Source of the DNA: Hysterium pulicare CBS 123377
Lineage: Eukaryota; Ascomycota; Dothideomycetes; Hysteriales; Hysteriaceae
Reading direction: 5' to 3'
Length of the DNA stretch: 64,000 bases
Assembly (NCBI GenBank): GCA_000467715.1
Contig: AJFK01000355.1
Location: forward strand, 1 to 64,000
Shown: piece by piece, positions 7,901 to 64,000 of the stretch
Numbering within the stretch: the first letter of the stretch is position 1
How the letters are laid out: the number at the start of each line of letters is the position of its first letter
Notes under the pieces: model-generated
Seen by the model: only the letters and a program-made list of their open reading frames with translations
Database searches by the model: none
What the model was told of the DNA's origin: nothing
Position numbers and translations under genes: made by a program

Positions 7901-8166
7901 AGCCTGTGCCCGAAAATTGTTCATTTGGCCAACATTCAGCTTCTGCCATGCGGAGGCTACAAATCTGGCCCTGCTCGGATCTGACCAACGCCATGAATTA
8001 GCAGACAGACGATACTGGTAATGAGAAACGACGTACGGGCGTGCCAAGCGCTGTTGTTTCTTTTCCATATGGTAAAAAGTAGGTATGCCCGTTGGTCGAC
8101 ATAGTTCAGAGTGGTGAAGACATCGTTTTCGCCCGCATATAGAGGTTGTGGTTGGTTCGCAGCCAT
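4945..8166 (-). CDS. Large Ser/Thr protein kinase with Gln/Ala-rich N-terminal repeats
   Basis: Proposed exons, minus strand: 8166-8037, 7980-7207, 7147-6823, 6754-6433 and 6375-4945, giving 993 aa with all phases consistent. The N-terminal third is low complexity, with QAQQAQ, LQAQQVQAA and ALEAEA repeats at about residues 70-150 and then a Ser/Asp-rich stretch. The kinase domain follows: Lys327 (VIIKRVAV), the fungal-type motif IPEHFLWYVF at 412-421, catalytic Asp463 (HLDIKPQN), DFG Asp488 and the activation-segment end GTPHWRAPE. A C-terminal tail of about 350 aa has no recognised domain but carries a basic nuclear-localisation-like run (RPRKRRK). The introns of 56, 59, 68 and 57 bp are inferred; two donors (GTGGCA, GTTGGT) are weak, so those boundaries are less sure than the kinase call. 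The substrate is unknown. Confidence 0.75.
7600..7862. repeat. In-frame minisatellite inside the kinase gene
   Basis: Three kinds of tandem unit sit side by side, all multiples of three: 18-bp units (cagcctcagcttccaacg) around 7639-7700, 27-bp units around 7720-7810 and 9-bp units (ttgctgggc) around 7817-7860. Read on the minus strand they encode Glu/Ala- and Gln/Ala-rich repeats. Because units are multiples of three, copy-number change alters protein length without breaking the frame. Confidence 0.85.
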
Positions 8167-9428
8167 GATGAAGACTATTAGCTTGATGAAGAAGTGATGA
8201 AAGAAATGTGACCGTGGCCGCGAGAGAAAGGTGAAGTAGCGGTTGGGAAGGAGGACATTTCGACGCGTCGAACTTTAGGACTCAAACAAATCCCATGTGT
8301 GGACAAAGAGTGTTCAATACCCAAAGACCAATCATTGTTGATTGTCTTTGTTGACAAAATAAGTCAGTGGGCGTTGGAATAATGGTTCATGAAATGTCGC
8401 AAACGGAAAGGGGCATAATTTCTTTGTGATGCACCCTTTCTGCTCACCACGTGTTGCATATAGCTCGGCAGCTAAATTCCTCTATCAAACACCGGACCTC
8501 TGCAGAACCCGATGATACATATACAAGGCGACCGTGGCTATGCTAAGGAGCTAGATTTGGCGATTAGCATTATCATAGCAGACCTCGTCCCCAAGTTCGC
8601 CAGATCGGTCCGGTCATGATGGAGCCAGCCGATGCCTCAAGGCCAGGATTTGGTTCAAAAAAGCGGTCGGTATGTACAAATAAGCTTGTTATCACTCTCG
8701 AGTCTATTTTAGCAAGAAATAATGCAGATTTTCTGGGGTTCGTGAGCTGAGGAGCACACGATTCCCAAGTTCGTTGCTGGCGGCGAGTATCTTCCGCTTG
8801 AAATGGAGGCATCTAAACGTGCCTTACGTATTGGTGACTTGACTGTGATTATAAAACAGGATCGAGGGGAGTAATACCATCGTTGCGGTAGTAGGTGAGC
8901 GGGAGAAGAGTAAAGTTAACATGTTGAAGCTTGGCAGTATAGCTTAGTAAGGGTCATTTCGGAGATATCCGATCGTCCAGAACGATAGCGATATACCGAT
9001 AGATCCAGGTCACTTATGGAAGAGAAGTAATCACATGAACCATGAACTAACTGCAGGAAGCAATTTATCAATGACAAATAATATCACTTGCCAAACTACT
9101 AAATCCCGAGAAGCCTACCGGGATGATGAGAGATAGATCACAGAATGAGATGGCACGTTCAAAACCCAAAGAAATGCATGTGTGCGCCCATACCCATCCC
9201 GCGAAGCGACAATCAGACCACGCTCTCCCAGCAATATGCAAGAACCCGAATGCAGCCATGAACAACAGGCTACACTAGCCCGAGTCAAGATATACTCACC
9301 ATGAGCAATAGACAGCAACAGCATACGAAAATACGCTCAGCCAAAAAATGCTCAAGGCGATCGGGTATCAAACACCCATATTTCCTTCAAAGTATTTCGC
9401 GAAGTCCGATTGATGGTGTGGAATCAAT
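8167..9428. other. Intergenic region, kinase promoter side
   Basis: No gene is supported. It lies between the kinase start and the stop of the protease gene, both on the minus strand. A short leader frame (about 26 codons from 8258, minus strand) precedes the kinase ATG and may be an upstream ORF. Confidence 0.4.
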
Positions 9429-24651: not shown

Positions 24652-27084
24652 CTAGGGCTTCGCGAAGAAGGACCGAAACCTATAGTACTTGTAAAGTCGC
24701 TTGAGTTCTGTCCTGTCCCCGTTATAGAGCCTTCGAAGTTCTGTTTTTCGAGAATCAAAATCGTACGTCCTGGGAGCCACTTCAAGGCCTGACTTCAGAG
24801 CTGATAGATTCTGCTTCCTTTGAAAAAGGGATGATCGATCTAGGAAGGCTTCAACATAATCAACAAGGTTATAGCGTACTGCAAATGAGAAGAATTGATC
24901 GAATTTCTCCTTGTCGGTTTTAAGATTGAAGACATAGCCAACATTATCGAGATAAATCTCCTGAAAAATCTGATTGACCTCAGTGGCCTTGCCAATTCGC
25001 AGGGCATACTCAAATGACCATTCAACCAGATTGCAGAATTCGTCATGCTTGGAGCCGGCGGAAGGGACTCGAAGATCGCTTAAACACTTCATTTGCCAAA
25101 GCAATGAATTAGCCCAAGCTCTGTTGGGATCGAAGAAATCGTCGACTGCAGAGGTTACTTTCTGCCAGATACGTGGTGACTCCAAAAAATCTCTGGCCGT
25201 TCTGTGGATATACTGGACATGGCCTTCAGAGGACACCTCCAGCAAACCCTTGTTGCAAGAGTTCACCCGTCGCCGCATCATTGACTTTTTATCGAGATAT
25301 TCGATGTCGGATAAGGGCAAAATTGCAGCTCTTGCCGCTGATCCATAATCATCGTCATCTGCAAAGTACAAAGCTATCAGAGACGGGTAGGCATTTGTTC
25401 TGAGAAGGTGGAATAGTTGACAAGCGCGCTTCAAATAGAATGGTTCGATACTGTCGAGGAGCTTCTCAAACAGCGCCTCCAGGTCTTCCGGCAGAGAATC
25501 GAGACGTGACTGCAGATCTGTTATACGATCAAAATTCGATAGCCCTTGCATAAGTGAGTCTACCACCAGGTAGACCCAAAGGAACACCCCGGAAGCTTTG
25601 TCGACGACATTGCACACAAGATCGTCCGCGGCTTGAGGGTTTTCCTTCATTAGCCGTTTGTATTGGTTGTGCTCATTGAGTTTGTTGGACACATAAAGCT
25701 GGATATCTCTACAAGTTAACTGTTGCAGAGTGAGGCTGGGCCGATTTTCAAATGCATCCTCAAAGACTGGCCACGGGCGACTGGCCACACAGACTTTCAG
25801 GTTGGTATGCTGTGTAACGTCGATGATAAGCTTGATTAATTCAGTATGGTCCCCATCAAATTCATCCAGGCCGTCAATAAGAAGAAAGAACCGTTTCGAT
25901 TGGTCAGACGTGAGAAGTTTTAAAACGCGCGTAAGCTCGGGCCAAGTGAAAGGTTCACCGCCTCCCCTGAAGGAGAGGTACTGTCGCCAGCGGTTATGAA
26001 ACAGCTGCGTGATTATTTCAACTTTACCGTATAGTAGTTCGTAGAGCAGGGATTGCATGAGGCCATCTCGGGACATCTGCATGACGGTTCCGGAGTTCCA
26101 AAAGAAGAAGCCGGCTTTGAACAGCTCGATAGAGCCAGCCCATGTTTCCAGTAATGTGAACGTCCGAGGGTCTTGATAAAGGTAGTTCATGAGAGTGGAT
26201 TTCCCAGATCCAGGTTTCCCGGTGATCCAATAGATACTATTGCGATTGGTGTCACGTAACCAGTCAGTGAGGTCATCCCATGACCGCTCGTTAGAGTCCG
26301 AACTTTTGAAGATCCACTCGAACGTATCGCGGTGAGCTTGTCTGATTGACTCCTGTCGGTCTGGTCTGCCGCGAAAATCAAGAAGAGCAAGGATCATCCT
26401 ACTAAAGCTTTCCTGCAATTGGGATTCGTTGGCCGTGTCGAGATGCTCAGAGAATGAATTCAGGTCCTCTTGTTTGCTCGGCTGCCAGTTGTTGGCGGCT
26501 AGTGCATCTAAAACTTCTCGTTGCCAATTTGCACACCCGGGAGCAATAGTGGGAGTCCGGGTTCTTCTTGTGGAATGGTCACTGTCTAGGCGTTCTCTAA
26601 TTGATGGTCAGCATGAATCACCACGTAGATTATTTGAAGGGGACTAAACATACCGAAGGGAGACCAGCAGGGCTGTATCAACCTGTTTTCTAATATTGTC
26701 AAGTTTCTGCTCTAGATTCTTGACATCTTTAGCAGTCCAGACCGTCTTCAATGCTTGACGAACGCTCTGCCACTTCCGGTTAGGTCCTTTGCGCGCAAGA
26801 CCCTGAAGTACTTTAACGAGTTCGGTGGTCACGTCGTTACATTCTCGACCAAGCTTCTGTAACTGTTTATCCGCCGAGGTAAGTTTTTGTCGATTCTGTC
26901 CATTGTCGCGCAAAGCGATATTGAGATCGTTAAGATTCTTCGCTGTATCTTCTAAGAGAGCATGCTGTTCAAGCATCCCATCCGCTGACGTATAAACCTC
27001 ATGAGTCTGTGAGATCAATCTGCCGGTGAAATCGATGACTTGAATGATATTCGAGGCCAGGCCGAGGGCGCTGATGGGATCCAT
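24652..27084 (-). CDS. NACHT-type STAND protein without visible C-terminal repeats
   Basis: Signal-transducing NTPase of the fungal NLR-like class, used in non-self recognition and regulated cell death. Exons 27084-26654 and 26596-24652 on the minus strand, 791 aa, with a 57-bp intron (GTATGT...CAATTAG). The N-terminal domain (residues 1-145, MDPISALGLASNIIQVIDF onward) is the helical fungal STAND N-domain. The NACHT core has Walker A at about 270-278 (GKPGSGKST) and Walker B at about 382-393 (LLIDGLDEFDGD). After it come helical segments including YIHRTARDFLESP, common in this family. The protein ends FRSFFAKP without ankyrin, WD40 or TPR repeats, so it is short for the class. The start at 27084 was preferred over 27093 because family members begin MDP. 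Ligand and effector action are unknown. Confidence 0.85.
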
Positions 27085-27763
27085 GATGAACAAATTGTCA
27101 ACAGAAAAAGGTTACAGCCATCACACGGCGAAGGAAGCGGGGCTCCCAAGAAAAAAAAATCTTTCAGCGCGGCTGAGGCTGAGGCTGAGTTCAGGCAGCC
27201 GTTTGCCAGTTGGCTGCCGCGCGAGGCTGAACGAGGCTAACCGTAGCATATTTGCTTGGACATAGAAGTTGCTCGGCGTTATTGCCTAAACAAAAGTTTG
27301 AGTGCTCTATAAGATCAATGGAATCTGATGAAAGAAGAATATTACACGCGCGAGATCATGCTTGGAGTTCGTGGGACGGTTGACAAAAGGTATGCGTTTG
27401 ACGAAAAGAACATGGTGCTTATGTAAACGTACTAAGTAGCGCGTAAATGGTCTAGCGCTGAAGCTACTCCGTATTAGGTTTCAGCTCGGGAAGCTGTCAA
27501 ACAACAAAGTATGCTGGAGTATTCGGATATCATTACTTTGCTTGATCAAGTTATGCTATGCTTCTAGCATTATCGTACATATCTCAGAAATAGAAGGAAT
27601 CATCAACATCCAAAGAAATTCCATGAAAGTCCTTTCTCCGACCCATGCATCCAGGAAGCAAGACTAGATGCTCCAACTCCGAGATATGCATATATCATTA
27701 GGTATTCCGCTCTCAGAGCTCATATACGTTGACATGTTCTTATCGCTTTGTCCAGACGTGCCT
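27085..27763. other. Intergenic region
   Basis: Contains the NACHT gene promoter and the 3' flank of the MFS gene. Nothing else recognisable was seen. Confidence 0.4.
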
Positions 27764-34329: not shown

Positions 34330-37300
34330 ATGGGATACCTGCCTGTGCCAAGGTTCTACCTGCGTCGACGCTGAGCTACTGCGGCTGCCGTTTCGTGCGT
34401 CGCTGCTGCTCGACAACACCTGCCTGTTCGTCGATTTCCCCCACCGCCAGGGTTTCTCCAACCGCGGCGTGATTGACCTACAGCGTCCCGTATCCGACCT
34501 CGAGGATTTCATCCAGTCATGGCTGTATTTTGGCGTGTTGAGCGAGTGGTGCGGCAAGCAGCTGGATCTGAACAGGTTCGCCGCAATTGACGGCAACGGC
34601 GATGCGTTCGTCAACTTGGACCGCGTGCGAAGTCTCCTAAAGGGTAAGTCTCTCGCACATCCGGCTGTCGCACCCAAGCTCACTTTCTACAGCCTCGAAA
34701 GGCGCAAGTCGAGACTGGCATGCTGATGACGAGCCTACTGGCGACCTCGAAAGCGGTGACGCTGAACAGCCTCGATCAGACGTGTTAATGGAGCTTCGCT
34801 GTTCGCCAGCACGCCGGCACCTGCTAACGCGCAGCGACTGTCTCGTGCGCGCGGCGTATTTAATCAACTCACTCGAGTCGGTGCTGCCGTTGGGCTGCCC
34901 GAGCCTCACCCACATAGTCCTCTCCGTCAAGGTTTTGATCCAATCGCTAGGTGGCAGCATGGGCCACCCAATCATCGAGGGCACTCTGGCTTACCCAATG
35001 TCTACGGTGCTTCTGGAGGAGACAATGCTGAGAAATGGCTGGTGCAGGCACCAGTGGAATCGCATTGGCCGCTCGCTTGACTTCGAGACCGCCCATTACT
35101 TGTCCCTACTGCCCCGAAGGACTCCGGGAATTACTCACGAGTCTTGCACCGCGGCAGTGTGCTCCGCGTGGAGCAGCGGGACCAGCGGTGCCCCGAACCA
35201 TGCCGATCCGACTTGTAGGTGTCGCATGATCAGTGTGCCATATGAGGAAATAAGTGCAATAATCTAAAAGGAACACATTCCTTTGGTATCTATTCACGAA
35301 GACAAAGGACGCTGGCGCATGAAGTGGCATGCTTGGGATGGGTGAGTGTTATCCCCTCACGTGCCAGCCAATCTAACCCTCTAGCTTCACGCCGTTCACT
35401 GCCATATCCCATGTCTGGGCTGATGGACTTGGGAACAAGCAAGCGAATGCACTTCCAGAGTGCCAGCTTCGTAATCTCCAGGCGATCCTTGAGGCAATAC
35501 CTATACACTTTCGACATCGCCACAATCCTCTCAACGTCATTCTCGCTCAACGAAAGGTTCACTATCTCTGGTTCGACACATTTTGCATACCCGTACGGCC
35601 AGGGTCACAGTCTTCAAACCTCGACATGGTCAAGCAGATGGCGATCAATAACATGAGCCTGATATACGCCAACGCCTCTCCCGTGCTCGTGCTGGATGCT
35701 GAACTCCGGAGGCTTTCTTCTGGCACAAACCGAGGAACACTGATGTCTTATGCTAGTTTCTGCGGTTGGACGACCCGTGCATGGACGTTCCAAGAGGGGA
35801 GTCTTCCGGAGTCGGTCGTATTTGCTTTATCTGACGGGATCTTTGACCCTTCACAGCAGGAAGTGCATTCTGCCCGACGCCCCACAGGGACTAATGTGGA
35901 TCTTCTACTGTTTCCGTTTAAACCTTCTATCCGCCAACGCCTCGTCTCCCGCTGGTATAAGCAACCACGTGATTCCCCGGGTAGAGAAGATCGCGGACAC
36001 CAGAACAGAAACATCGAACAGCACCTTCGGTCGTACTGGTCTGAGGATCAGTTTTCAATCTGGCCAGACGCCGATAGGTCGCGGAAGGAATGGGAAGGCG
36101 CGATGGTGCGGCGTCTGTGGAATAAGCTAATCCAGCGTCACACGTCGGAAGAACGAGATTTGCCCCTAATTTTAGCCAACCTCCTCGGTTTCCGAGTGCT
36201 AGACGTCCTTCAGTCGGATCGGCATCTGGAAACCATAATCGGAAGCCTCGAGTATATTCCAGTAGGACTCCTTTACAATATCGGAAAGCGTCATTGCTTA
36301 TCACCTCCGGCGCCGGGAGTGACATCCTCGTCTCAGTTTGGCACTGGCGGGGAAGGTATCGATGATTTCAAGCTCCTCAACCGGGTCCCCGAGGAGATCA
36401 AAGGCTCAAGCATCCCAGATGGGCCAGTCTTTCTGGCAATTGATTCAACCCTTCGACTGCACAACCCGCACTACGCGCGATATTCAGAATCCTCGGCATC
36501 GATATTCACTTCCTATATGATAACTACACCCCCAGCGAGATTTGTTCTCAAACACTCAGCGGATCCTGCCACACTGTACAAGGTGACTGTTGATACGCAA
36601 CCTGACGATGGCATGGTGAAAGAGAAGCTCGGCTCAATAACGGACGGGTTATGCTTCATGATTGAGTCTACTAAGAGCGGTCCACAGCAACACCAGGACG
36701 TCCTCAGCGGAGCCGCTCTTGCAATCGTCAACGAATCATCTTATGAATTGACCACTATGACAACGCCATCCGCGTAGAACCAATACAGGCCTGGGAGGCT
36801 GGACAGGACATCCATGATCTTCCCGTTTTCCTCGCAAATTACTCCAACCCAGAACTTATCGTGGTGCAATATTGTAAGTTATCAACCTATTTCGAGGACC
36901 AACTAACTCGTACAGATGCAGAGGAGCTTGGAAAAGTGTCTAGCACGATCCCCAGGAGCATTGCTGGCCCCATGCACGGACAAGTGCGCACGCTCGTATG
37001 GGGAGCAGTTGTCAACGCCATCGTTGTCGCCTCCAGCCTTTCGCTCGGAATTGAAGGCTCCGGTTCAGTGTACCTCAAATGTCTCGGTGCTTGGGTGGGC
37101 TTTTTGGCAAGCTATGCTATTCTGTTCTGGCTTCTCGGGCCCAGGCTTTCGCGTAACCGGCTTCAGGCCTATCTACGGTCTGCTTCGCCCAGTCGGATGC
37201 GCCGCGCAACCCAGTTCCTCCAGGCAGTGGCCACCTATCCGTTCATATCAGGTTTCGCGGTTTTCGTTATTTGCACCTCGACAGGGATTGCCATACTACT

Positions 37301-37460
37301 AGAAGCCGGAAAGAGAGACTCTGATCACGGGACCAGCTATGCAGACATATTCCTCATCATGTTCATCAGCTCCAGTCCACTCCTTATGTCGTTCTTGAAA
37401 GAAAACTCTGTGTCGTGGGAGAATGAGGTGTTCCGTGCAAACCACGGCCTGATCGATTAG
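34330..37460 (+). pseudogene. Decayed HET-domain (heterokaryon incompatibility-like) gene
   Basis: Coding remnants of a large HET-family gene, a fungal family that triggers cell death when unlike strains fuse. Recognisable parts in order: an N-terminal region (about 34360-34643, ending in a clear GTAAGT donor); a conserved linker with CPSLTHIVLSVKVLIQSLG and CRCRMISVPYEEI; the HET core (FTAISHVWADGLGN, YLWFDTFCIPV and ARAWTFQEGS-like words, about 35385-35830); a long middle region; and a C-terminal part with several membrane segments (GAVVNAIVVASSLSLGIEG, FISGFAVFVICTSTGIAILL). Introns near 34644-34692, 35342-35384 and 36874-36915 still have good signals. The reading frame is interrupted at least twice, so the locus looks broken but not old. 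The 5' end is uncertain. Confidence 0.7.
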
Positions 37461-53153: not shown

Positions 53154-54084
53154 TTTAGTGGAATGGTGGGTATTGATACGATAAGGATGAGGTTGCTTTC
53201 TTATGTGAATTATTTCGATTTTGAATGATGCGGGATTTCACGGTATGAGCAATGGGTGGCTGCGGTTTTCATTACTTTCTATCTCATGTCGTTGCTTCAT
53301 GGATAGGGAGCGTTTCAGCTTCATGGCTCTGTTGCAGGATAACGGGATGATGGGCTTGTACGGGTATACCAAGGGCGTTTTAGGGAGGCAGTAAATGTTC
53401 ACAAATGATTATTCCGTTGAACTTCCTTCTTCTTTTCATCCTTCAACATCTATTGAGTATTGAAATGGTATGTTTTCCCACACCTGGACCCCTTACTCAA
53501 GCTAGGCTGATAGATGAGACGGAGCCAGTTTAAGTATCGTAGTTCATTATACTCCGGCTTCCTTTTCCACTATACTCAATATGAGAAGGCTATACCGACA
53601 GCAACTTGGAGGTGTAGATACTCTTCTAGCATTATGCTGAGCTTCAACCGCTACAGACGCCCTGCAAGGAGTGTTGGTGCGGGGTTATTGCCAGCCCATA
53701 GTAACGAATCCATGCGCCTTGTGTTGTTGCTAAGGTGGAATCATCCCTCTCATTATACCTTTCGGTTGCGTAGCCATTGACCATTCGTAAATCTCTGGGT
53801 GTCCATTAGGCAACAATTTCATGTTTTCTGTCCGCATTAGACTCCAACCTCAAGGAGTTCTCGCCATTCTTTCCTCCTTGCCTCTCCACCGAAACTTGTC
53901 GTTTCTCCGATCTCTTCCAATGTCCCATATACTGGGCGCCTTGAATATCCCGGAAGTTGCACTCCTCGATTCGTTCTCTAGTCATTTTGCCCCCAGCATG
54001 CAACAAGGCTGAGGCCTTTTCGTTGCCACTTCTCTGACACCCTTCCTGCAAGCACTTCACCTACCTTCCTCGCGAATTGTCGGA
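53154..54084. other. Intergenic region
   Basis: 3' flank of SMC3. Small open frames at 53514-53780 and 53821-54012 have no recognisable content. No gene is called. Confidence 0.35.
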
Positions 54085-55670
54085 ATGTCTCCATTGTCGA
54101 AGCCGAACGAGCTATGCTCCGACTGCTCGAAGCTCGACTTCGATAAGCTATTCTTTGGCCCCAGAGGCTGTCCATGCATAAGAAAACGGCTCGGCACATT
54201 CGACACGATGATAACAGAATCGGAGAGCTGTAGCTTCTGCCGCCTGTTATCTTTTGGTATTGATCCTCTTTATATTGACACGGAGTGGCGCTCAGTACTC
54301 TTGGAAGACAAATTAGGATGTTTCCTGAAAGCCCAACGCGCCGACTCCGTGGAAGCGTTGTGCATCAAGGACGATGGTGATGAGGATACTTCCTCGACCC
54401 TGACGACTTCCGCAACGACTTTGGCGATACGATTACGATCTTCCGTTTCAAGTCTGTCACCTCACTTCCATTCCATGGTCATAAAACTTGTGTCTGGAAG
54501 CCACGATCATACACGAAGAACATTGCTCGATGGGTGGCCAGCAAGCTATCCGAAAATAAATTTTGATTTCCTCCAAAATTGCATGGCGAACTGCGAGAGA
54601 GACCTTGGAGAGGCTGTGGGGACTTTTCGGACGCTTTGATTGATGATTTATATTCATATACACGTTCCTTTCGCGTTATTGATGTTCGCAATCGGGTGGT
54701 ATTAAACGTTGACATGAAACACGCCAGATACGCAGCTTTGAGCTATCGATAGGGCCTTTCCCAGGACTCCTATCTATCCCGGCAGAAAGAGGGTTCCTAC
54801 AATAACGACGGTCCAGAATCAGAGTCGTCACTTCCACAAATCCTACCGAGAACGATTGAGGATGCCATATCAACGTGCTGTTCACTGGGTATTGGCTACC
54901 TATGGGTTGACCTATTCTGCATCGACCAGCGCCCTTCAGAAGAGAAGGCGCTTCAGCTCCGTAACGTGGGCTACACTTATGGCAATGCTGTGGTTACTCT
55001 TATCGCTGTTACTGGCACTGATTCTGAAGCGGGCCTCCCCGGGATAAACGGAAGTCACCAATCCCAAGAAGGGCGTCCAAATTAAATACGAGAAAAAGTT
55101 GCCGGCTTTGATATGATCACGGGGTTGCCACTTCTCCGGGAGCAGGTTTCATATTGCGCGTGGTCTACAAGACGTGGACTGTCCAGGAAGGCCTACTCTC
55201 AAACGGTGCATCATATTCGGTGGAGCGGTCCCCATTTTCGTATGCAACAAAGTTTTCGATGCAGAATCGTTAAGAAGCTTGCATGTGGAATCAAATGTTG
55301 CTCATGCAGCTCCTGTAGATTCTTTGGCTCTATGCGCGACAATTGCTTCCCGTATCGATCCCTCGAATCGGCGACGGATATTCTTTGACTACGCGAGAAT
55401 TATCGAGAAATATACCGAGCGGGATCTCTCTCGGGACTCGGACATCTTAGATGCGCTTTCTGGCTGAATGGAACCCACCTCGCAGCTCACGAAGACACCC
55501 TTTGTCTGGGTTATACCAAGTGAATGGTTTGTTGATGGCTTGTCTTAGTCTGCCGCACACGGGACAACGCGTGAGCCAGAAAGGTTTCCTCAGTCCCCGA
55601 GCTGGTCATGGCTAGATGGCGGCTCTGACTTTGCGAATGGCGATTCGCTCAGTCACTCAAATCTCTCCAT
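54085..55670 (+). pseudogene. Second decayed HET-domain gene
   Basis: Plus-strand remnant of a HET gene of a different subtype from the one at 34330. The N-terminal piece begins MSPLSKPNELCSDC and has CxxC-type pairs (CSDCSKLDF, CSFCRLLSF), typical of HET leaders. HET core words survive: RYAALSY, IGYLWVDLFCIDQ, AWSTR followed by WTVQEG in another frame, then IFFDYARIIEKYTERDL and SPSWSWLDGG. The reading frame is broken several times (roughly four or more), so it is older or more damaged than the first HET locus. It lies immediately upstream of the RING-like array. Confidence 0.68.
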
Positions 55671-56545
55671 CGCAATGGGACGACAGAATACGTTAAGAGT
55701 TCTCTATCATCATTCAGGACGCTGAAGTTGAAGATGAGTGGCATACCCATTTGCTAAGAATAGCCAAGAAAAGCATTCTCCACCACGATATTTGTCCGGA
55801 ATGTCGTGAAGGAACCAATAGAGAAGGATCACAGTAGGTTTCGGCCTTCGTGGAGCGTGCGATGACTATGATCAGAAGCGTCTTCGAGTTGAGTCTTATA
55901 TTGCACACTTCCAAATATCCGAAGTAGAGACAAGAAATCGGCGAAGTCCCTAGAACAGGAGGGAAGAATCTACCTCTCAACTCCAGACTTCGCTATCCTG
56001 ACAGAAGATGGGCCAACATCTAGCCACGACTTTCGTTTCCTCTTTCAAATTTCATGAGCCAGGAAAGCTACCAATGGCCTGTCGACGGCTAAAAGGAGTT
56101 TCTCATGCTGAGACGCTGGATGAGACCGACTCTTCCAAGACAGCACCTCAGAAGTCCTGCAATTATGCGGCAGCACTGGTTATTCGCCGCCACGGTGTGG
56201 CCCATCGCTTCGGTATCGCTGCTATATCTACGAAGGTCTAGGATAGGGCGCAGTCACAGCCAACAATTGGGTACCTCGAGTAAAGCTCTTTGTACGTGGA
56301 ATCATCAAGGCAGTTCCCGTTGTAGTGACTGCTTGTGACTGCTTGCGACGGTTGGGATGAGTAACGCCCGCCGCTACCCTCACCATCTATCTTAACCTAC
56401 TGAAAGCGGATTCCAACACCGATAAATCCACTTCGGAATATCTCGCTTCAGTCTTTGCTATTCTTCCTGGTCATCGACTTCTTCTCCGCTATTTCTCAAG
56501 TCTGCCTTCTTATCGCAACTATCTCGTGAAAGCCAATCAACACGC
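55671..56545. other. Intergenic region between the HET remnant and the RING-like array
   Basis: May include the decayed 3' end of the HET locus. Open frames of 77-88 codons at 55714-56338 show nothing recognisable. It also contains the promoter position of the first array member. Confidence 0.3.
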
Positions 56546-57175
56546 ATGAAATCGCTCCGGACCGCGCTCGACATCTTCTCAGCTGCTGATTTCGACATCA
56601 ACACGAATGTTCCTCCACCTCTTGAGAGTCAGAAGTGCAGCTACTGTTGGGAGAGTTTTGGGGCAAATCATCCAGAAAACCCAAACAAGGTTCCTTGTCA
56701 GCCAATCGGCCTCCTTCCTTGCAATCATCTCATCGGGAGAGTGTGTTTCGACAAGTAATGTCGCAGCGGCAACGACCTTTGCCCAATATGCCGAGTCCAC
56801 CTATCGAAGAAACCGCTCACTCGATTAAATGAGTACAGTTTTCACAGTATTACGTCGAGGATTTGCGAAACGAAATGGTCTAGATTCCATGATACTTCTT
56901 GACGGTCGTCGGAATTCTTTAGCTTGCCGTGGTCACTTGCAAGACGGAAGGATTACTGCAAGCGAAGCCTGTCTACTTTGGGTCGACCACATCCTTCGCA
57001 TTTCTGTTCTTCTCCCAATGAAGTCTTTCTATGCTATGATAGCCATCATTTTGATCAGGGACTTACGGATCTGTTCTTGTTGCATACATGGAGTTTTATT
57101 CTACTTCTCAATATTGCGGCCTCTTCATTGGTTTTGATCGGTCTTTTCTGCCTCGCGGTTTCCAAGAAGGTTTAG
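56546..57175 (+). pseudogene. RING-like membrane protein, array copy 1 (broken)
   Basis: First of five tandem relatives. The N-terminus (MKSLRTALDIFSAADFD) aligns with copies 2 and 3, and the zinc core is nearly complete: CSYC, a Cys in VPCQP, CNHLIGRVC, CRSGND and CPIC. A TAA codon at 56756-56758 lies inside the core, where copies 2 and 3 have Leu, and the same frame continues after it through CPICRVHLSKK. Further on, the region equivalent to LQDG.ITA..A..WV.H (LQDGRITASEACLLWVDH) and the last membrane segment (ILLLNIAASSLVLIGLFCLAVSKKV) are in other frames. There are therefore about three interruptions. The good preservation of the pieces suggests recent loss. Confidence 0.75.
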
Positions 57176-57577
57176 GGAGAGTGAGAGGTAGAGCTCATTG
57201 ACCGGAGTCTCTTGTTTTACTCGGTAAACGTATGAACATGAGTCATACTGAACAAATAGTTCTGGATATTTTCCCCCCTCTCTAAGCTTAGGTCTCATTT
57301 TTTGTGAGCGTTTGTCTCGCGTCTCGTCTGCATACGGGAGGTTGCCTCGGGCGGACGAATCAAAGACCCCTTCACCATGCTTGTTTCCACAATGCATACA
57401 TCGGAGAATCACACCGCCAGTCTATCATAAACGTCCCTAATTTCCAATCCAAAGTTTCACAATATCATAACCATATCTACCGCTATCTCCCTTCATGGGA
57501 AGCCTCCCAACTCTCGGATAACCGGCTCCTCTTGCAGTGTGCACTGCGATTTTTCAACCCTTCAACCAAGCTTCCCA
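57176..57577. other. Spacer between array copies 1 and 2
   Basis: About 400 bp, presumably the promoter of copy 2. No TATA-like box was recognised and no gene is supported. Confidence 0.35.
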
Positions 57578-58444
57578 ATGCTATCGCTCCGCGCCGCTCT
57601 CGATAGTATCAGGTCCGATGACTTCGTCACAACGACCGATGTATCTCCTCCACAAGATGAATACTGCTTCATCTGCTGGAGCCCATTCCCAAGTTCGGAC
57701 GATACGGATCACGAAGCCACTTGCGAAGCTATCGGCTTTCTACCATGCAAGCACCTCATCGGGAACCAATGTTTCAAACGCCTCTGCGAAGATGGAAACA
57801 AAACTTGCCCAGTATGCAAGGTTTGTTTGACAAAGAAGGATCGAGCTCGTCCCAGCACATTGAGCTTTCTTGGTATTATGACGAGGATCTGTGATTCGCG
57901 TTGGTTCGCTATATTCGACACATTGTACAACGTCACTCCCTCCGAAGAAGACACATATCCACTTCTCGTCGAGCGTCACCGGAAGAGGATGCAGGACGGA
58001 ACCATTACAGCGGGCCAAGCATTGTCGGTCTGGGTCAACCACGTTTGTTCGGCCTGCCTGTTCTTGCTCCTATTCTGTGGATACCCCGTTCTCCTCTACC
58101 GCACCTTCTCCCATCTCTGTTCTCTCGCTTGGTACAAATTGTACGACTTATTGAACCCAAGCCCGAGAAACTACCAGGAAACCTATATTTTTGGCATTAC
58201 ATACATCATATTAGCAATCCTAATAAGACTCTATTACGCCATACTTCGTTACGTCAAGACGAGAACCCTAAAAAGAGTGGCGGGCTTCCTGATCTTAGCA
58301 TATGTCTTTGATCAGTCCACTGGCTTATACTTCGGGGATCTTTGGGGCTGGTTGTGGTTGGCGAATTTCGCAGCCTTCCTGGTCGTACTCGCTGGTTTGC
58401 TTTGCTACGCTGTTACTAAGAACAAGGTCCAAAGAGCCGAATAA
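57578..58444 (+). CDS. RING-like zinc-finger membrane protein, array copy 2
   Basis: Intact single-exon gene of 288 aa. The start at 57578 (MLSLRAALDS) was chosen over an in-frame ATG at 57539 because it lines up with the N-termini of copies 1 and 3. Zinc core: Cys30, Cys33, Cys49, Cys57, His59, Cys65, Cys70, Cys77 and Cys80. It resembles a RING finger, but Gly62 sits where ligand 5 normally is (CKHLIGNQC). The core is followed by a conserved helix-rich stretch (MQDGTITAGQALSVWVNH) and about three to four membrane segments (ACLFLLLFCGYPVLLY, FGITYIILAILIRLYYAIL, FAAFLVVLAGLLCYAV). The likely role, by family, is a membrane-anchored E3 ubiquitin ligase or a zinc-binding relative. Substrate and organelle are unknown. 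Confidence 0.82.
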   Translation: MLSLRAALDSIRSDDFVTTTDVSPPQDEYCFICWSPFPSSDDTDHEATCEAIGFLPCKHLIGNQCFKRLCEDGNKTCPVCKVCLTKKDRARPSTLSFLGIMTRICDSRWFAIFDTLYNVTPSEEDTYPLLVERHRKRMQDGTITAGQALSVWVNHVCSACLFLLLFCGYPVLLYRTFSHLCSLAWYKLYDLLNPSPRNYQETYIFGITYIILAILIRLYYAILRYVKTRTLKRVAGFLILAYVFDQSTGLYFGDLWGWLWLANFAAFLVVLAGLLCYAVTKNKVQRAE

Positions 58445-58996
58445 TCTGACCGTGGGTCTCTTGGGGGGTCAACTTTGGTCGTGCTCAACAAACCGCTTGT
58501 GGATTAGGGCAAACGGGTATTATCATATGTTGTGTTCGGACGGTCTGTCTGCGTCTACCACTTTCTTTACTACCAGCCTACAAGGTCCAGCCAGACTCGG
58601 TACCAGTCGTTTGAGCAAATTGCCATCCTTGAGGTTGTTCCGAAAGTAGCATGTAAAATGACACCTCTCCAGGCTTGTACGGTTATGAAAGTCGGTTGTA
58701 TGACGGATACTGACACCCATCGTGGTGTTCGTTGTTCAGTAATGATGAAAAGTATCCTGAAAGGGAGTGAATGAAATGATTTATTTGGAAAGTATCAAAA
58801 CAATGTTACGAACCTTAGAGCTTCAACACGGTCTACACAATGAATCCACAGAATACCTATATAAAGCCTACGCACTCCTCCATTTGTTCCTCAGATTACC
58901 CCTCTGATCACTCCTCTGATCACTTCTCAAATCATCAGTCCTCGGATCACTCCTCCCGGATTTCCCCCTCGAATACACAATTGTCACCTTGGAAAA
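58445..58996. promoter_or_regulatory. Spacer with TATA box upstream of array copy 3
   Basis: A TATA-like box (tatataaag, 58858-58866) lies about 130 bp before the ATG of copy 3. Between them are adjacent copies of cctctgatcact (about 58890-58915), with a third variant near 58938. No gene is supported, although 58532-58774 is open. Confidence 0.5.
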
Positions 58997-59839
58997 ATGC
59001 CCTCCCTTAAGGTGGCTCTCCATAACCTCACAAGCGACAACTTCGAGGTCACAAAGGATTTCTCGCCCCCTGCAGCAGATGACAGATGCAGCTACTGCTG
59101 GCGGAATTGGGGAACGAAGTATGATGAAGATGACCCGAACGAAATACCCTGTCAACCTGTTGGCCTTCTCCCATGCAAACATCTTATAGGCGAAGAGTGC
59201 TTTGATAGCTTGTGCCTAAGTGGCAATGATCTCTGCCCGGTATGTAGGGTGCAGCTCACGAAGACGCCCAAAGTAGCATCTGGTAGGTTTAGCTTCGAGT
59301 CTATTCTGACGGCACTCTGCAACACCACACAATTTGAAATGATGGATGGTTTTGCGGAGGAATTTGACCAGATTTCGGATCTGGGTCCCTACCGCGATAA
59401 GCTCCAAGATGGGTCTATAACCGCTCGAGAGGCGGGGTGGATCTTCGCAAATCATGTCCTTCTATCCCTAGGCGTGCTCCTCGCAAGGTTCATCTTTGAC
59501 ATTCCGTTATTTCTATTCGATAGAACTCGGTTTTCTCTATCTCCAACTCCTGAGTCCGCTACTTTTTGCATGAAACTCTATGTCCTTTTGGTACTTGGGG
59601 GCTTGTTAATGGAATCCTTTTCCGTTCGCCTTAGACATTCATCCCTCTGGAGAAACATGACTTTCTGTCTACGTCAAGTCGCAAGGTTGACTTTGTTGTC
59701 TACTCCTTATGCTGTTAAGGTCAGTCTGGTAACCAACTATATTTATTTTGTGCCTTACCTCTCCATAGTAGTATGTCTACTTTACGTTGCGGTAACAAAG
59801 AAGCAGAAGTTAGCCAAAGGGCTCAAGAAGAACGAGTAG
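58997..59839 (+). CDS. RING-like zinc-finger membrane protein, array copy 3
   Basis: Intact single-exon gene of 280 aa. Zinc core: Cys31, Cys34, Cys52, Cys60, His62, Cys68, Cys73, Cys80 and Cys83, with Gly65 at the ligand-5 position (CKHLIGEEC). After the core comes the family stretch LQDGSITAREAGWIFANH and then hydrophobic segments (VLLSLGVLLARFIFDIPLFLF, KLYVLLVLGGLL and YIYFVPYLSIVVCLLYVAV), ending in a Lys-rich tail. It is closest to the broken copy 1 in the core (CSYCW, PCQPxGLLPC, GNDLCP). Family and function are as for copy 2; outside the zinc core the two differ a great deal. Confidence 0.83.
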   Translation: MPSLKVALHNLTSDNFEVTKDFSPPAADDRCSYCWRNWGTKYDEDDPNEIPCQPVGLLPCKHLIGEECFDSLCLSGNDLCPVCRVQLTKTPKVASGRFSFESILTALCNTTQFEMMDGFAEEFDQISDLGPYRDKLQDGSITAREAGWIFANHVLLSLGVLLARFIFDIPLFLFDRTRFSLSPTPESATFCMKLYVLLVLGGLLMESFSVRLRHSSLWRNMTFCLRQVARLTLLSTPYAVKVSLVTNYIYFVPYLSIVVCLLYVAVTKKQKLAKGLKKNE

Positions 59840-60352
59840 ATCCAGCCTATTTTGTAGCAGAATATAATAATTACAAGAACGAAATTAAATCACATGACAA
59901 ATTGTGGATTTTAGTAAGTGATTCCAAGTCCCTAAAAACCTCGCTCCTATCTCCGAATGCTAAACTTCTCTACGCTAATGTTAGTGCCGCTCATCCATTG
60001 AGAGTTATGATACTATTTTCAGCAGTATTGGAGCAGTGAGAATGTCATCACCAGGGAGCAAGTTCCACTCGCCCGACCTACGTCTTTGTCAAACTCGTAT
60101 CTTCACTCCACAAGCCTCGGTTCACGTCGACTCTGACTCAGGGCGTGTGACAGAATATGACTCAGTGAATCTATTCATTTTCTAGAACAATTTCCATGAT
60201 GACGATGAATCATGTCCCGGGTGAGTTGAACGGGAACCACTCGGTAGCATATAAAAGCATTATACCTTCTCTCCTATTGTTCTCTCTCAACCAATCCCGA
60301 TTACCTCCCCGCGAAAGCATCCCCCATCGTTCTCTACGACTGGACTCCAAAC
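59840..60352. promoter_or_regulatory. Spacer with TATA box upstream of array copy 4
   Basis: A TATA-like box (atataaaag, about 60249-60257) lies about 100 bp before the ATG of copy 4, with a C/T-rich leader in between. No gene is supported. Confidence 0.5.
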
Positions 60353-61255
60353 ATGGCCTTTCCACAAGGTGCACTCAATGCTATTACGGTTGCCGTAACT
60401 GACGATATTCCCCCACCACCAGCGTATTCTTATTGCTACCTCTGTGCTCGCGAATACGGTATGAAGCTAGGCAGCATCGACCCATATGAAGTCTGCTATC
60501 CCGTTGGCCTTCTTCCATGTGGGCATCACTTAGGGACGGAATGTTACGAGCAACTCCATATGGCAGGCGTAACCCACTGTCCGTTTTGCCAGATTCCACT
60601 ACTCCAAACCCCGCAAGTCAGCAACTCGCTCTTTTTTTCCATCCTCACAAAAGTTTGCGAAACGCGGTGGTTTCAATGCGTCGATACATGGGTCTGTCAG
60701 TGGACCGCCGGCCCCTTCAGGCTCGCAAATGGCACTGCTAATCGAAGAAAGGTCACACTCGGTGGCAGCATAACATTCAAGGAAGCTGTCCCGGTGTGGG
60801 TCAATACCTTGTCACTACTTTCGCAAATGGCCATCACTTTCTTCTTGATCACTTTGGTGGTTGAATTCGCCGCCTTGGCATGCACGCTCTTTATGGCTAT
60901 ATCAATTATCATGGCCACGAAAGCGTTTCCGCAGATCCATGATACAGCAAACCCGATAGTGGCTCAGCTCCTCGGATCAACTTTAGTTGTGTGGATGCTG
61001 TTTCTAACCTTTTGTGTAACTAGGCGGACGCTGAAGGTATTATACGTTGCAGCTGGACGGAAGTGGACAATGATAACATGCTTCGAGCTTGGATTGGTCA
61101 TGTGGTTACCGTTGGGCTGGCAACCTCTCTTTGCATTATGGATCGTGATGGTAGCCAACCTTGCTGCCTATGGTTTGGTAGTAGCTGCACTCCTAGCATT
61201 CGCGATGTTGAAGAAGAGGCATTGGAAAAAGGTCATCCAGAAGCAGAGGGGGTAA
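60353..61255 (+). CDS. RING-like zinc-finger membrane protein, array copy 4
   Basis: Intact single-exon gene of 300 aa, more diverged. Zinc core: Cys28, Cys31, Cys48, Cys56, His58, Cys64, His69, Cys76 and Cys79, with Gly61 at the ligand-5 position (CGHHLGTEC). His69 replaces the Cys that copies 2 and 3 carry four residues after the preceding Cys. The family stretch is GGSITFKEAVPVWVN. About four strong membrane segments follow (MAITFFLITLVVEFAALACTL, LLGSTLVVWMLFLTF, CFELGLVMWLPLGW, AAYGLVVAALLAFAML), then a basic tail (KKRHWKKVIQKQRG). It has the most hydrophobic C-terminus of the array. Confidence 0.82.
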   Translation: MAFPQGALNAITVAVTDDIPPPPAYSYCYLCAREYGMKLGSIDPYEVCYPVGLLPCGHHLGTECYEQLHMAGVTHCPFCQIPLLQTPQVSNSLFFSILTKVCETRWFQCVDTWVCQWTAGPFRLANGTANRRKVTLGGSITFKEAVPVWVNTLSLLSQMAITFFLITLVVEFAALACTLFMAISIIMATKAFPQIHDTANPIVAQLLGSTLVVWMLFLTFCVTRRTLKVLYVAAGRKWTMITCFELGLVMWLPLGWQPLFALWIVMVANLAAYGLVVAALLAFAMLKKRHWKKVIQKQRG

Positions 61256-61959
61256 GGGCTTTTGGGACTGACTGCGGAAGAAGCAGGCGTAGAGAAGCCC
61301 GTCACTGTTCCAACGCCAAGGACGTCCGATGGGCTGTAAGTCCGATCTAGCATAAATACCTTCCCACGTGATCTTACTTGTAGCATCAGAATCCCATCTG
61401 TTTTGTTTTATTATCCCCATTATCTTGGTTCCAACCATGCGCATTTATCAGTCTATCGGAATGCGGCCACTTTCTTTGGATGAATCCGCCCTTTCGAGAA
61501 GACAACATTGTGAACGACTGAACCCACCACGACGGAACCCACCGTTATTAATTCCGGCATATAAAGCATGCACAACAATATGAACAATGAATTGCACTAC
61601 TCCAACTCACATACCTGATAATCAAACGGTTTGTTTCCCGTTATTCTTTCAGTGAACACTAGTTGTGGAAACTTTCGACTGTGAAGAAAAGTTTGTTTAG
61701 TGACTTCACAGCTCATAGGCTGACTCTCAGTCGTACTTGGTGTATAAACTGCGTGTGAATGACAGCCCTGCCTTTCCATTTAGCAAACTAAAGTGATATA
61801 CCTTTATGTGCAATGTCCATATTAAGATTTACGCAGTCCACCTCTGCTCTACCCAACCCAGACATCCACGACAACCCCTTATCAACTCTGTAAGTTACCA
61901 TCCATTTCCTGAAGATCTATTAGTAACATGGCAGAAATAACCTCCGATACTGGACCGCG
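61256..61959. other. Spacer between array copies 4 and 5
   Basis: TATA-like words occur at 61558-61566 (catataaag) and 61741-61749 (tgtataaac). A short frame opened by an ATG at 61929 overlaps the start of copy 5 in another frame and may act as an upstream ORF. No gene is supported. Confidence 0.4.
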
Positions 61960-62655
61960 ATGGCTCCGAACGAAACCACGAACTGGAAGTCCGACACAGG
62001 ACTTTCCTTTCGTGCCAGCTTCCTCCGCGCGCTCCGACACCCGATGAACGCGTGTGATATAACCCAGACCACATTCGTCGATGACACCTGCTTTATCTGC
62101 AAACGTAGGTTTGGTTTCGTTGAAGAATTGGGCGAGGTGCCGGAGCATGCCTTTCGGGTACCAGGATGCGGCCATATTGTCGGCGTTCACTGCCTCCTGT
62201 CTCATGTTGACCCATCGCCGGAAATGGTCGATCGCGGGGTTGTACCAATGAACACTTGTCCTTATTGCTCAACAAACCTGTTTGATTGGCGTGTGGGTCC
62301 TGTGGAAGATCAAGTCCAAGATCAGGTAGAGGAGCAACTCCAGGGAGAGGTTGAGGAGCATGTTGCAACGGAAGTTCGTAAAGCTCCTAAAGTGCGTATT
62401 CTCCTCTCCCGAGATCTTCAGGCAAAGATTAGACAAGAGGCTGAGCGACAATTTGGCGTTGAACTACCCCCTGACCAATATGTTGGAGTGACGGTCCAGT
62501 TCCGTGCGCCCCCTGGATGGGCCATTGATGAGGATGGAAATTGGCGGTCAACTGAGAGGCCGCCCGGATATCTTGTTCGAAACGCAATCCCGCTGGGAGT
62601 CATCTTGTTTATGTGTGTCTTCAGAGTAGTGGCATACTACTTCAGATATCAGTAA
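61960..62655 (+). CDS. RING-like zinc-finger protein with one membrane segment, array copy 5
   Basis: Intact single-exon gene of 231 aa, the most divergent member. Zinc core: Cys44, Cys47, Cys70, His72, Cys78, His82, Cys100 and Cys103, with Gly75 at the ligand-5 position (CGHIVGVHC). The spacing to the final CPYC is longer than in the other copies. Instead of several membrane helices it has an acidic Gln/Glu-Val repeat (EDQVQDQVEEQLQGEVEEHV), a mixed region and a single C-terminal hydrophobic segment (AIPLGVILFMCVFRVVAYYF), suggesting a tail anchor. It may be a true family member or an older relative that shares only the core. Confidence 0.75.
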   Translation: MAPNETTNWKSDTGLSFRASFLRALRHPMNACDITQTTFVDDTCFICKRRFGFVEELGEVPEHAFRVPGCGHIVGVHCLLSHVDPSPEMVDRGVVPMNTCPYCSTNLFDWRVGPVEDQVQDQVEEQLQGEVEEHVATEVRKAPKVRILLSRDLQAKIRQEAERQFGVELPPDQYVGVTVQFRAPPGWAIDEDGNWRSTERPPGYLVRNAIPLGVILFMCVFRVVAYYFRYQ

Positions 62656-62884
62656 GGCCTAAGGAGAGAGTTATGAATGAGTCCAAGTCTGGGCTATGGT
62701 GTTCTCGAAGTTTATGTGAGAATCTGACTTGTCATCAAGTCCTTGATTGGGGATAGCAGAATTTATCAAAATTTTCATATGGGTAGAAGGCATAAAAGTT
62801 GGCTTGGCATGGTTCGAGAGCAGACTTGGATTTTGCCAGTGGTTTTTGTGAGCGTGCCGCCATATCATTCATACAATTGTCCCA

Positions 62885-64000
62885 TCACTTCGTTCCCTCC
62901 TTGACAATGCGATCAAGCATTGCATGCCTCTTCGCAGCATGAGCAAAGTCTGTGGTGGCGTCTTTCGTGCATTCTCTGAAGGCCTTGTAGTGTCTCCTAG
63001 GGTTCGCGAACACCAAGTTATTCCCATACATACTCCACTCACCCGTCGTATCCCAGTTGACGTCAATCATATCGGTCTTTCCGTTCTTGGCCAGTCTGAT
63101 CTCGGCTGATAGGTCTCGAAGGAATTGGCCCTGCGTCTGTGTAAATTCAATCACGCCTTTAGTCCCTGTGATCAGCCAGCGGAATATTTTACCATCCGAA
63201 TCGCTGTTCCCAAGTACGGAAATGCAGGGAAGCAGTGGCTCCACCCGCCAGCTTTCCCTGAACCAAGATCTGATCCAGAGCGGTACGTTCGACGACCTTG
63301 TATGAAACAGACTCGGGATCTTGTCGTACTTCCCCGAGCTGTGAGATAGGGATATGGTAAAGCTTGACGTGCTTGTCATTTGTAGCCAAGAGAGGATTAA
63401 AAAACTCAAACTCGCCGAGCGTGACACAAAAGGCGTCCAAGAAGTGTGCAAAGTGAGTATGCAGCGAGCTTTGACCGCTCTCCAATATACAAGTAGAACT
63501 CCGCTCGCTTTGACCAAACATCCAGCGCTGGTCCGAGGCTTCCCAACACATCAGTACTGGTCACCGTGTCGATCTCACCGGAAGTAAGTAGTTCGCGAAG
63601 TTTAGTGCTGACAGGTGCAACACGGCTCTCTATGTCGACCATTGTTTGAACATCCTTTTCGGCGGCAATCGTTGCTAACTCGTTTGCCTCGTCATAATTT
63701 GCTGCAAGCGGCCATTCGCTGAAGACTATCTTTACTTGTTGAAGAGCTGTCTTGGCTATTTGGTAATAGTACTTCACCTCAACACATATGACTACCAGGT
63801 CGATGGCTGAGTCTTTTGCGAGGGAATCGGCATCAGCGAAGGCCTTCGTTGCCGGAGGAAGATCAAACTTTTTGATTGCTTCTTGCGAAGAAGATAAAGT
63901 AGAGTTGAGAACAGCCACGATTTCGTAATCAGGACTGTGCTGGAGGTATGGAAGGTGTGCCATCTTAGCCCAGCCGGAGTTGGACTTGGGGGAGAGGCCC
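62885..64000 (-). pseudogene. Gfo/Idh/MocA-family oxidoreductase gene, frame-shifted and cut by the window edge
   Basis: Minus-strand NAD(P)-dependent dehydrogenase of the Gal80/Gfo/Idh/MocA type. The reading frame is open to the right edge (GWAKMAHLPYL), so the Rossmann N-terminus lies outside the window. Family words are DLVVICVEVKYYYQIAKTAL, FSEWPLA (the conserved EWPLA, reading EKP in classical members) and then HFLDAFCVTLGEF. The coding sequence moves to a second frame near 63470 and to a third near 63230 (GKIFRWLITGTKGVIEFT onward, ending KEGTK). No introns of sensible length explain either change, so two frameshifts are inferred. Sequencing error is an alternative. Substrate (galactose, xylose or other sugars) is unknown. 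Confidence 0.65.

Follow-up and report, generated by a model that had tools for sequence, protein, structure and literature searches.

Gene organization of the array

The stretch of Hysterium pulicare CBS 123377 DNA analyzed here (GenBank assembly GCA_000467715.1, contig AJFK01000355.1, positions 1 to 64,000; 64,000 nucleotides, hereafter the window) carries near its downstream end a series of genes for RING-like membrane proteins. Four of these, named copies 1 to 4, are a real tandem paralogous family of which one member, copy 1, has been lost; a further gene with a similar core, gene 5, follows them (Table 1). Copies 2 to 4 are three intact single-frame genes, all on the plus strand, and their stop-to-stop lengths (337, 324 and 335 codons) exceed the longest open stretch found when the region was shuffled 200 times (268 codons, mean 129). 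The corresponding stretch of gene 5 (242 codons) is shorter than that maximum.

Table 1. Features of the array and of its surroundings, with positions in the window.
Feature	Position	Strand	Details and evidence
Copy 1, N-terminal part and zinc core	56546..56896	+	Stop at codon 71; found by tblastn with copies 2-4; 46% identical to copy 3 (117 columns)
Copy 1, conserved QDGxIT piece, LQDGRITASEACLLWVDH	56928..56993	+	Other frame; tblastn with copy 2, 50% of 22 residues
Copy 1, last hydrophobic segment and KK-containing tail	57041..57169	+	First frame again; tblastn with copy 2 residues 241-282, E 8.6e-6
Copy 2, intact, 288 aa	57578..58444	+	RING-G core 57665-57817; motif 57980-58045; hydrophobic part ~58037-58420
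Copy 3, intact, 280 aa, C-terminal KKNE	58997..59839	+	RING-G core 59087-59245; motif 59393-59461; hydrophobic part ~59450-59803
Copy 4, intact, 300 aa	60353..61255	+	RING-G core 60434-60589; divergent motif ~60761-60802; hydrophobic part ~60806-61207
Gene 5, 231 aa	61960..62655	+	RING-G-like core 62089-62268; one C-terminal hydrophobic segment ~62587-62643; Pfam zf-RING_2 E 0.0048, below cut-off
Oxidoreductase gene, bounds array downstream	63189..63999	-	GFO_IDH_MocA and Gal80p_C-like pieces (Pfam)
Broken HET-domain gene, ~1.5 kb upstream of array	54567..55082	+	Pfam HET 5.8e-16 on piece 54753-55082
Second HET domain	35377-36774		Pfam 4.9e-8
Fungal NOD-like receptor (NLR)-like gene (SesA/NACHT-type), two open pieces	24655-27111	-	SesA-like N-terminal domain 6.2e-6, NPHP3_N/NACHT, DUF7791 (Pfam)

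Short tandem repeats lie upstream of copy 3 (58888-58955; 12-base unit, 5.4 copies) and of gene 5 (61514-61543; 15-base unit, 2 copies). TATA-like sites were found 139 bases before copy 3, 103 bases before copy 4, and 217 and 400 bases before gene 5, and no such pattern was found before copies 1 and 2. Comparison of the 400-base upstream stretches with one another by blastn-short revealed no match at E 1 that would indicate shared promoters, and an Rfam scan of positions 53500-64000 returned no match.

Homology of the copies

By blastp, copies 2 to 4 are homologous over nearly their whole length, with expectation values within the set of four proteins of 5e-37/1e-38 for copies 2 and 3, 2e-27 for copies 3 and 4, and 1e-21 for copies 2 and 4. 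With leave-one-out profiles every one of the three scores 112-148 bits (E from 4e-31 to 3e-42, computed at a search size of 177,635). The zinc core is 30-50% identical among them, the linker 29-32% and the membrane part 21-30%, and homology outside the RING core holds, piecewise, for copy 1 as well. A preliminary description of this DNA, made from its letters and reading frames, had proposed a tandem array of five RING-like membrane proteins. Its expectation that the similarity of copies 2 to 4 would reach well beyond a generic RING motif is borne out, and the array itself stands for copies 1 to 4 on the blastp, profile and tblastn results; the membership of gene 5 is not demonstrable (see below). 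When the profile was searched against the 1,313 six-frame stop-to-stop pieces of at least 30 residues in the window, E <0.05 was reached by copies 2 to 4, pieces of copy 1, and gene 5 alone, and the next-best piece had an E of 0.89.

Over the first ~117 residues, identity is 46% for copies 1 and 3, 44% for copies 2 and 3, 43% for copies 1 and 2, and 42% for copies 3 and 4, against 32% for copies 1 and 4 and for copies 2 and 4. Copies 1 and 3, earlier singled out as close, are thus hardly closer than three other pairs, which all fall within 42-46% together with them. Third codon positions differ most among the copies, at 0.67-0.75 over the whole length, which is near saturation, and first and second positions have changed less; the duplications therefore appear to be ancient, with the proteins kept under constraint.

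Copy 1 is a real broken relative, as had been suspected of one gene in the array. It extends from 56546 to about 57170 and is damaged by a stop, frame shifts and a deletion. Codons 1-117 lie in one frame with a single stop at codon 71, and the QDGxIT piece sits in the same joined tblastn match as the core. The 47 bases between the last two pieces take the place of 84 codons of copy 2 (residues 157-240). Differences between the core of copy 1 and that of copy 3 are 0.38, 0.32 and 0.62 at the three codon positions; this retained excess at third positions indicates that the loss was recent relative to the duplication. Birth-and-death evolution, previously suggested for all five genes, is accordingly a reasonable description of copies 1 to 4, with old duplications and one later loss, and gene 5 lies outside the demonstrated family.

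Two other accounts of copy 1 were rejected. As a live intron-containing gene, it would need an intron over the stop, and one of the usual size would remove zinc ligands; frame shifts and the deletion follow (judged by eye). Repeat-induced point mutation (RIP) as the cause of its decay finds no clear sign in the indices (TpA/ApT 0.51, (CpA+TpG)/(ApC+GpT) 1.30), which are near those of a neighboring gene that we take to be SMC3 (0.51, 1.28). The highest TpA/ApT was that of copy 3 (0.90), with a second index of 1.18 and no clear sign of RIP.

Zinc core and linker

The N-terminal zinc core proposed in the preliminary description is present in all five genes as a RING-type pattern, C-x2-C ... C-x-H-x2-G-x2-C ... 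C-P-x-C, with glycine at the fifth ligand position in each. With glycine there, none of the genes matches the strict eight-ligand RING pattern, C-x2-C-x(9-39)-C-x(1-3)-H-x(2-3)-C/H-x2-C-x(4-48)-C-x2-C. Seven of the eight ligands and all spacings are kept in copies 2 to 4, in gene 5, and in copy 1 if its stop is read through, and all five genes are therefore of the C3HGC3 or RING-G type, defined by glycine at metal-ligand position 5 with the others kept. In addition, copies 1 to 4 keep a cysteine 8 residues before ligand 3 and a cysteine or histidine 5 residues after ligand 6, either of which could replace the missing fifth ligand. The cores are predicted to bind zinc.

Pfam RING models gave weak matches in all five sequences scanned (best 7.4e-5). 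In the PDB, the family profile (A1) matched 79 distinct sequences at E <=1, the best 60 of which score 13.3-20.4 bits; 59 of these 60 are RING-type, many of them different constructs of a handful of proteins, and the remaining one carries the name of an ARNT-like protein. Among the PDB sequences, RNF168, Arkadia and other RING proteins match the core best. A model of the core (110 residues, from five window sequences) reached a mean predicted local distance difference test (pLDDT) score of 62, with blocks of residues 31-90 at 55-79. Searched against the PDB with Foldseek, this moderate-confidence model gave 305 matches at E <=10, of which the best had an E of 0.012 (prob 0.99) and none was <=0.001. 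RNF13 comes first among the matches listed, with the RINGs of RNF38, RNF165, HRD1 and gp78 among those that follow, and the 50 listed of the 305 are, judging by their titles, either RING domains or complexes that contain a RING subunit, as the cullin and anaphase-promoting (APC/C) complexes among them do.

The residue directly after the last ligand is arginine, lysine and arginine in copies 1, 2 and 3, respectively. A cationic "linchpin" occupies this position in most structures of a RING with a ubiquitin-charged conjugating enzyme (E2~ubiquitin) but is not found in all RING E3s (PMC12326332). The cationic residues favor a predicted ligase activity for copies 1 to 3, and the glutamine of copy 4 suggests a weaker or different activity for that protein.

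The linker contains the conserved motif QDGxITxxxA in copies 1 to 3; copy 4 has diverged and reads "LGGSITFKEAVPVWVNT". Of the longer QDGxITxxxAxxWVxH previously assigned to copies 1 to 4, the first ten positions thus hold in three copies, and the assignment fails for copy 4. An EF-hand reading of QDGxITxxxE (D-K-L-Q-D-G-S-I-T-A-R-E in copy 3) was rejected, since by eye few of the acidic residues are present in copies 2 and 4. A second short conserved stretch follows the zinc core at about residues 98-112 and reads SFHSITSRICETKW, SFLGIMTRICDSRW, SFESILTALCNTTQ and FFSILTKVCETRW in copies 1 to 4; its cysteine is retained in all four.

Membrane part and topology

The C-terminal membrane segments noted earlier are confirmed: hydropathy gives copies 2 to 4 three strong segments plus one that is weak (copies 2 and 3) or overlaps its neighbor (copy 4), and gene 5 has one. 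We read the membrane part as three to four hydrophobic helices, best as four. Counts of lysine plus arginine in the 25 residues before the first segment, the three loops and the tail are 4, 2, 3, 0 and 2 for copy 2, 3, 2, 3, 0 and 4 for copy 3, and 4, 1, 5, 0 and 7 for copy 4, and depend on segment boundaries set by hand. This alternation of charge agrees with four helices and two cytosolic ends; it is clear in copies 3 and 4 and weak in copy 2. A low-confidence full-length model of copy 3 has four long helices in this region. Given this helix number and direction, which we infer, the RING and the tail are most likely both cytosolic.

Relationship of gene 5 to the family

Gene 5 stands on the same strand, in line with the copies. 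It resembles them in the N-terminal position of its core, in having a hydrophobic segment toward the C-terminus, and in the uncommon glycine at ligand 5, which is found in 6 of 139 Drosophila RINGs (PMC3166285, Table 2). The profile of copies 2 to 4 finds it at 12.9 bits (E 0.0047 in the window search), a score reached by 1 of 500 shuffles of gene 5 in which all cysteines, histidines and prolines following cysteine were held fixed. These points would suit a single family of five in which gene 5 is a remote member from which the linker motifs and the greater part of the membrane region have disappeared, an account compatible with the other readings given here. We hold it possible but somewhat doubtful. 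Scored with the family profile, gene 5 reaches 11.4 bits (E 1.7 for a search of PDB size), whereas each of the 60 PDB matches listed, 59 of them RING-type, has at least 13.3 bits. Its spacer before the last CPxC is longer than in the copies, an hhalign comparison with the family (78.8%) covers the core alone and finds no similarity outside it, and phmmer with gene 5 against the PDB found no RING up to E 10. The preliminary description, which counted gene 5 as a member, had named similarity no wider than a generic RING motif as speaking against the family, and for gene 5 this is what we find. Gene 5 is better described as a neighbor with a similar but not demonstrably related core.

Predicted function

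On balance, we favor the reading that copies 1 to 4 form a tandem family of long standing, whose RING-G proteins are membrane-anchored and probably act as E3 ubiquitin ligases at an internal membrane. Such a protein would consist of the N-terminal RING-G core, a linker with short conserved stretches, the hydrophobic helices and a basic tail. The RING would hold E2~ubiquitin near the membrane of the endoplasmic reticulum (ER) or of another internal compartment, and the faster-changing membrane part would choose the substrate. The C-terminal KKNE of copy 3 fits the KKxx ER-retrieval signal. E2 binding, ligase activity, ER location and substrates are all predictions from the sequences.

Several observations weigh against this reading. 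One canonical zinc ligand is glycine, and no Pfam RING model reached its curated cut-off in the five sequences (best 23.1 bits against 27.3, zf-RING_2). The linchpin position is occupied by glutamine in copy 4 and serine in gene 5. The number of helices is not firm: copies 2 and 3 have a weak third segment (1.28 and 1.08), the last two peaks overlap in copy 4, and the loop between segments 3 and 4 measures 6, 2 and 0 residues with boundaries set by hand; three helices in place of four would put the tail on the opposite side. Modeled at full length, copy 3 gave a poor structure (mean pLDDT 51). The KKxx tail belongs to copy 3 only; the ends of copies 2 and 4 do not fit that signal. Finally, relatives outside the window were not found in viral, GTDB or plasmid collections, which are non-fungal, so that this absence says little.

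The same features of the core could instead belong to pseudo-RING membrane scaffolds, which would bind zinc and proteins without activating E2~ubiquitin and would regulate or block other ligases or membrane proteins. In line with this, all five genes have glycine in place of the fifth ligand, copy 4 and gene 5 lack a cationic linchpin, and the Pfam RING scores stay below cut-off. Arginine or lysine at the linchpin in copies 1 to 3 and the possible replacement ligands in copies 1 to 4 argue the other way, and an insect survey counts RING-G as a regular RING type, a class assignment that says nothing of activity (PMC3166285). We consider such scaffolds unlikely and prefer membrane-anchored ligases.

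Comparison with known RING proteins

The kind of gene found here is a familiar one, comprising membrane RING proteins of the RING-G subtype in tandem paralogues with a pseudogene, and its members may stand in databases as uncharacterized entries. What stands out is that a polytopic membrane part is joined here to a RING-G core. No family name for copies 1 to 4 was found in Pfam, NCBIfam or PDB sequence searches or in the literature (titles and starts of abstracts), none of which covered fungal proteomes. The preliminary description had called the family apparently undescribed, which it may be. Matches to NCBIfam (copies 2 to 4 and gene 5) and PHROGs (A1 members) were weak, far below cut-offs, or absent. 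Pattern searches of non-fungal collections gave 4 matches in viral contigs and 19 in GTDB genomes, none of them confirmed, and a scan of plasmids, also non-fungal, with copy 3 alone gave no match.

Among Drosophila RINGs, 6 of 139 are C3HGC3/RING-G, one of them with a human ortholog, and their expansion has been suggested to be taxonomically restricted (PMC3166285). The fly members likewise have glycine at metal-ligand position 5 and keep the other seven ligands. In contrast to the hydrophobic segments of copies 1 to 4, none of the six is counted as a membrane protein in Table 2 of that survey (0,5,0,1), and copies 1 to 4 differ from them further in having two additional conserved Cys/His positions in the core.

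The ER membrane RING E3s RNF5/RMA1, RNF170, Hrd1 and gp78 resemble the copies in joining a membrane anchor to a RING, RNF5 being anchored in the ER by its C-terminus (PMC4021871). HRD1 and gp78 RINGs are also among the Foldseek matches listed for the core. They differ in that three to four segments come after the RING in the copies and that ligand 5 is glycine there; in Hrd1 and gp78 the RING comes after the membrane part. Matches to PDB sequences cover the RING alone, save for one chance-level match to the membrane part (E 0.58). RNF168 shares C-x-H, the sixth ligand and CPxCR in the alignment, but its aligned ligand 5 is cysteine where the family has glycine. The RING domains of RNF168 and Arkadia are the best matches to the core, yet at 16-20 bits the resemblance is that of generic RINGs.

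Known fungal membrane RINGs are mostly conserved ones of ER-associated degradation, the Golgi and peroxisomes. Should the family turn out to be widespread among filamentous fungi, the kingdom would gain a lineage-specific set of membrane ubiquitin ligases. The glycine-for-ligand core would offer a handle on how RING-G domains hold zinc, and the tandem array is a place to measure ligase birth and death between strains.

Genomic neighborhood

Genes related to non-self recognition lie in the same window as the array. The broken HET gene upstream of the array is surrounded by open pieces running in several frames, and a stop falls in what we take to be the N-terminal HET motif. A second HET domain and a SesA/NACHT-type gene lie farther upstream. 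The role in recognition, stress or protein quality control that the preliminary description raised for the array is an argument from the position of these HET and NLR-like neighbors.

The array could thus be part of a non-self recognition or cell-death locus in which the RING proteins set the amounts of incompatibility or NLR proteins and diversify alongside these. This is compatible with membrane-anchored ligases, and the strong divergence of the paralogues would suit it. We nevertheless think it improbable. The argument is one of position. Of 69 HET genes in Neurospora, 42 have a lineage-specific gene no more than five genes away, most of these lineage-specific genes being without functional annotation (PMC10684091), so that proximity to HET genes is common, carries little specific weight and does not show a role in recognition. 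The adjacent HET gene is broken, and the near saturation of third codon positions precludes a test of selection on the paralogues. A conserved gene, presumably SMC3 (named by inspection of reading frames), ends 3.4 kb upstream of the array. A term search of the main text of a review of the fungal immune system found neither "ubiquitin" nor "ring finger" (PMC10197012). A broader proposal, that these are lineage-restricted polytopic membrane RING-G ligases with a rearranged zinc site (the cysteine before ligand 3 or the Cys/His after ligand 6 serving as ligand 5), duplicated and lost in tandem beside allorecognition genes and exerting membrane-bound control of non-self or stress responses, is a long shot.

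Two minor observations concern other parts of the window. After the second HET domain, up to position 37460, comes an open piece that has no Pfam match and, by eye, contains membrane-like segments. On the minus strand, kinase-like pieces at 4945-8281 match Pkinase below cut-off at 6708-7157 (E 0.00093) and give no match at 4948-6381; they adjoin a Gln/Ala-rich repeat stretch and may be a diverged or broken kinase gene.

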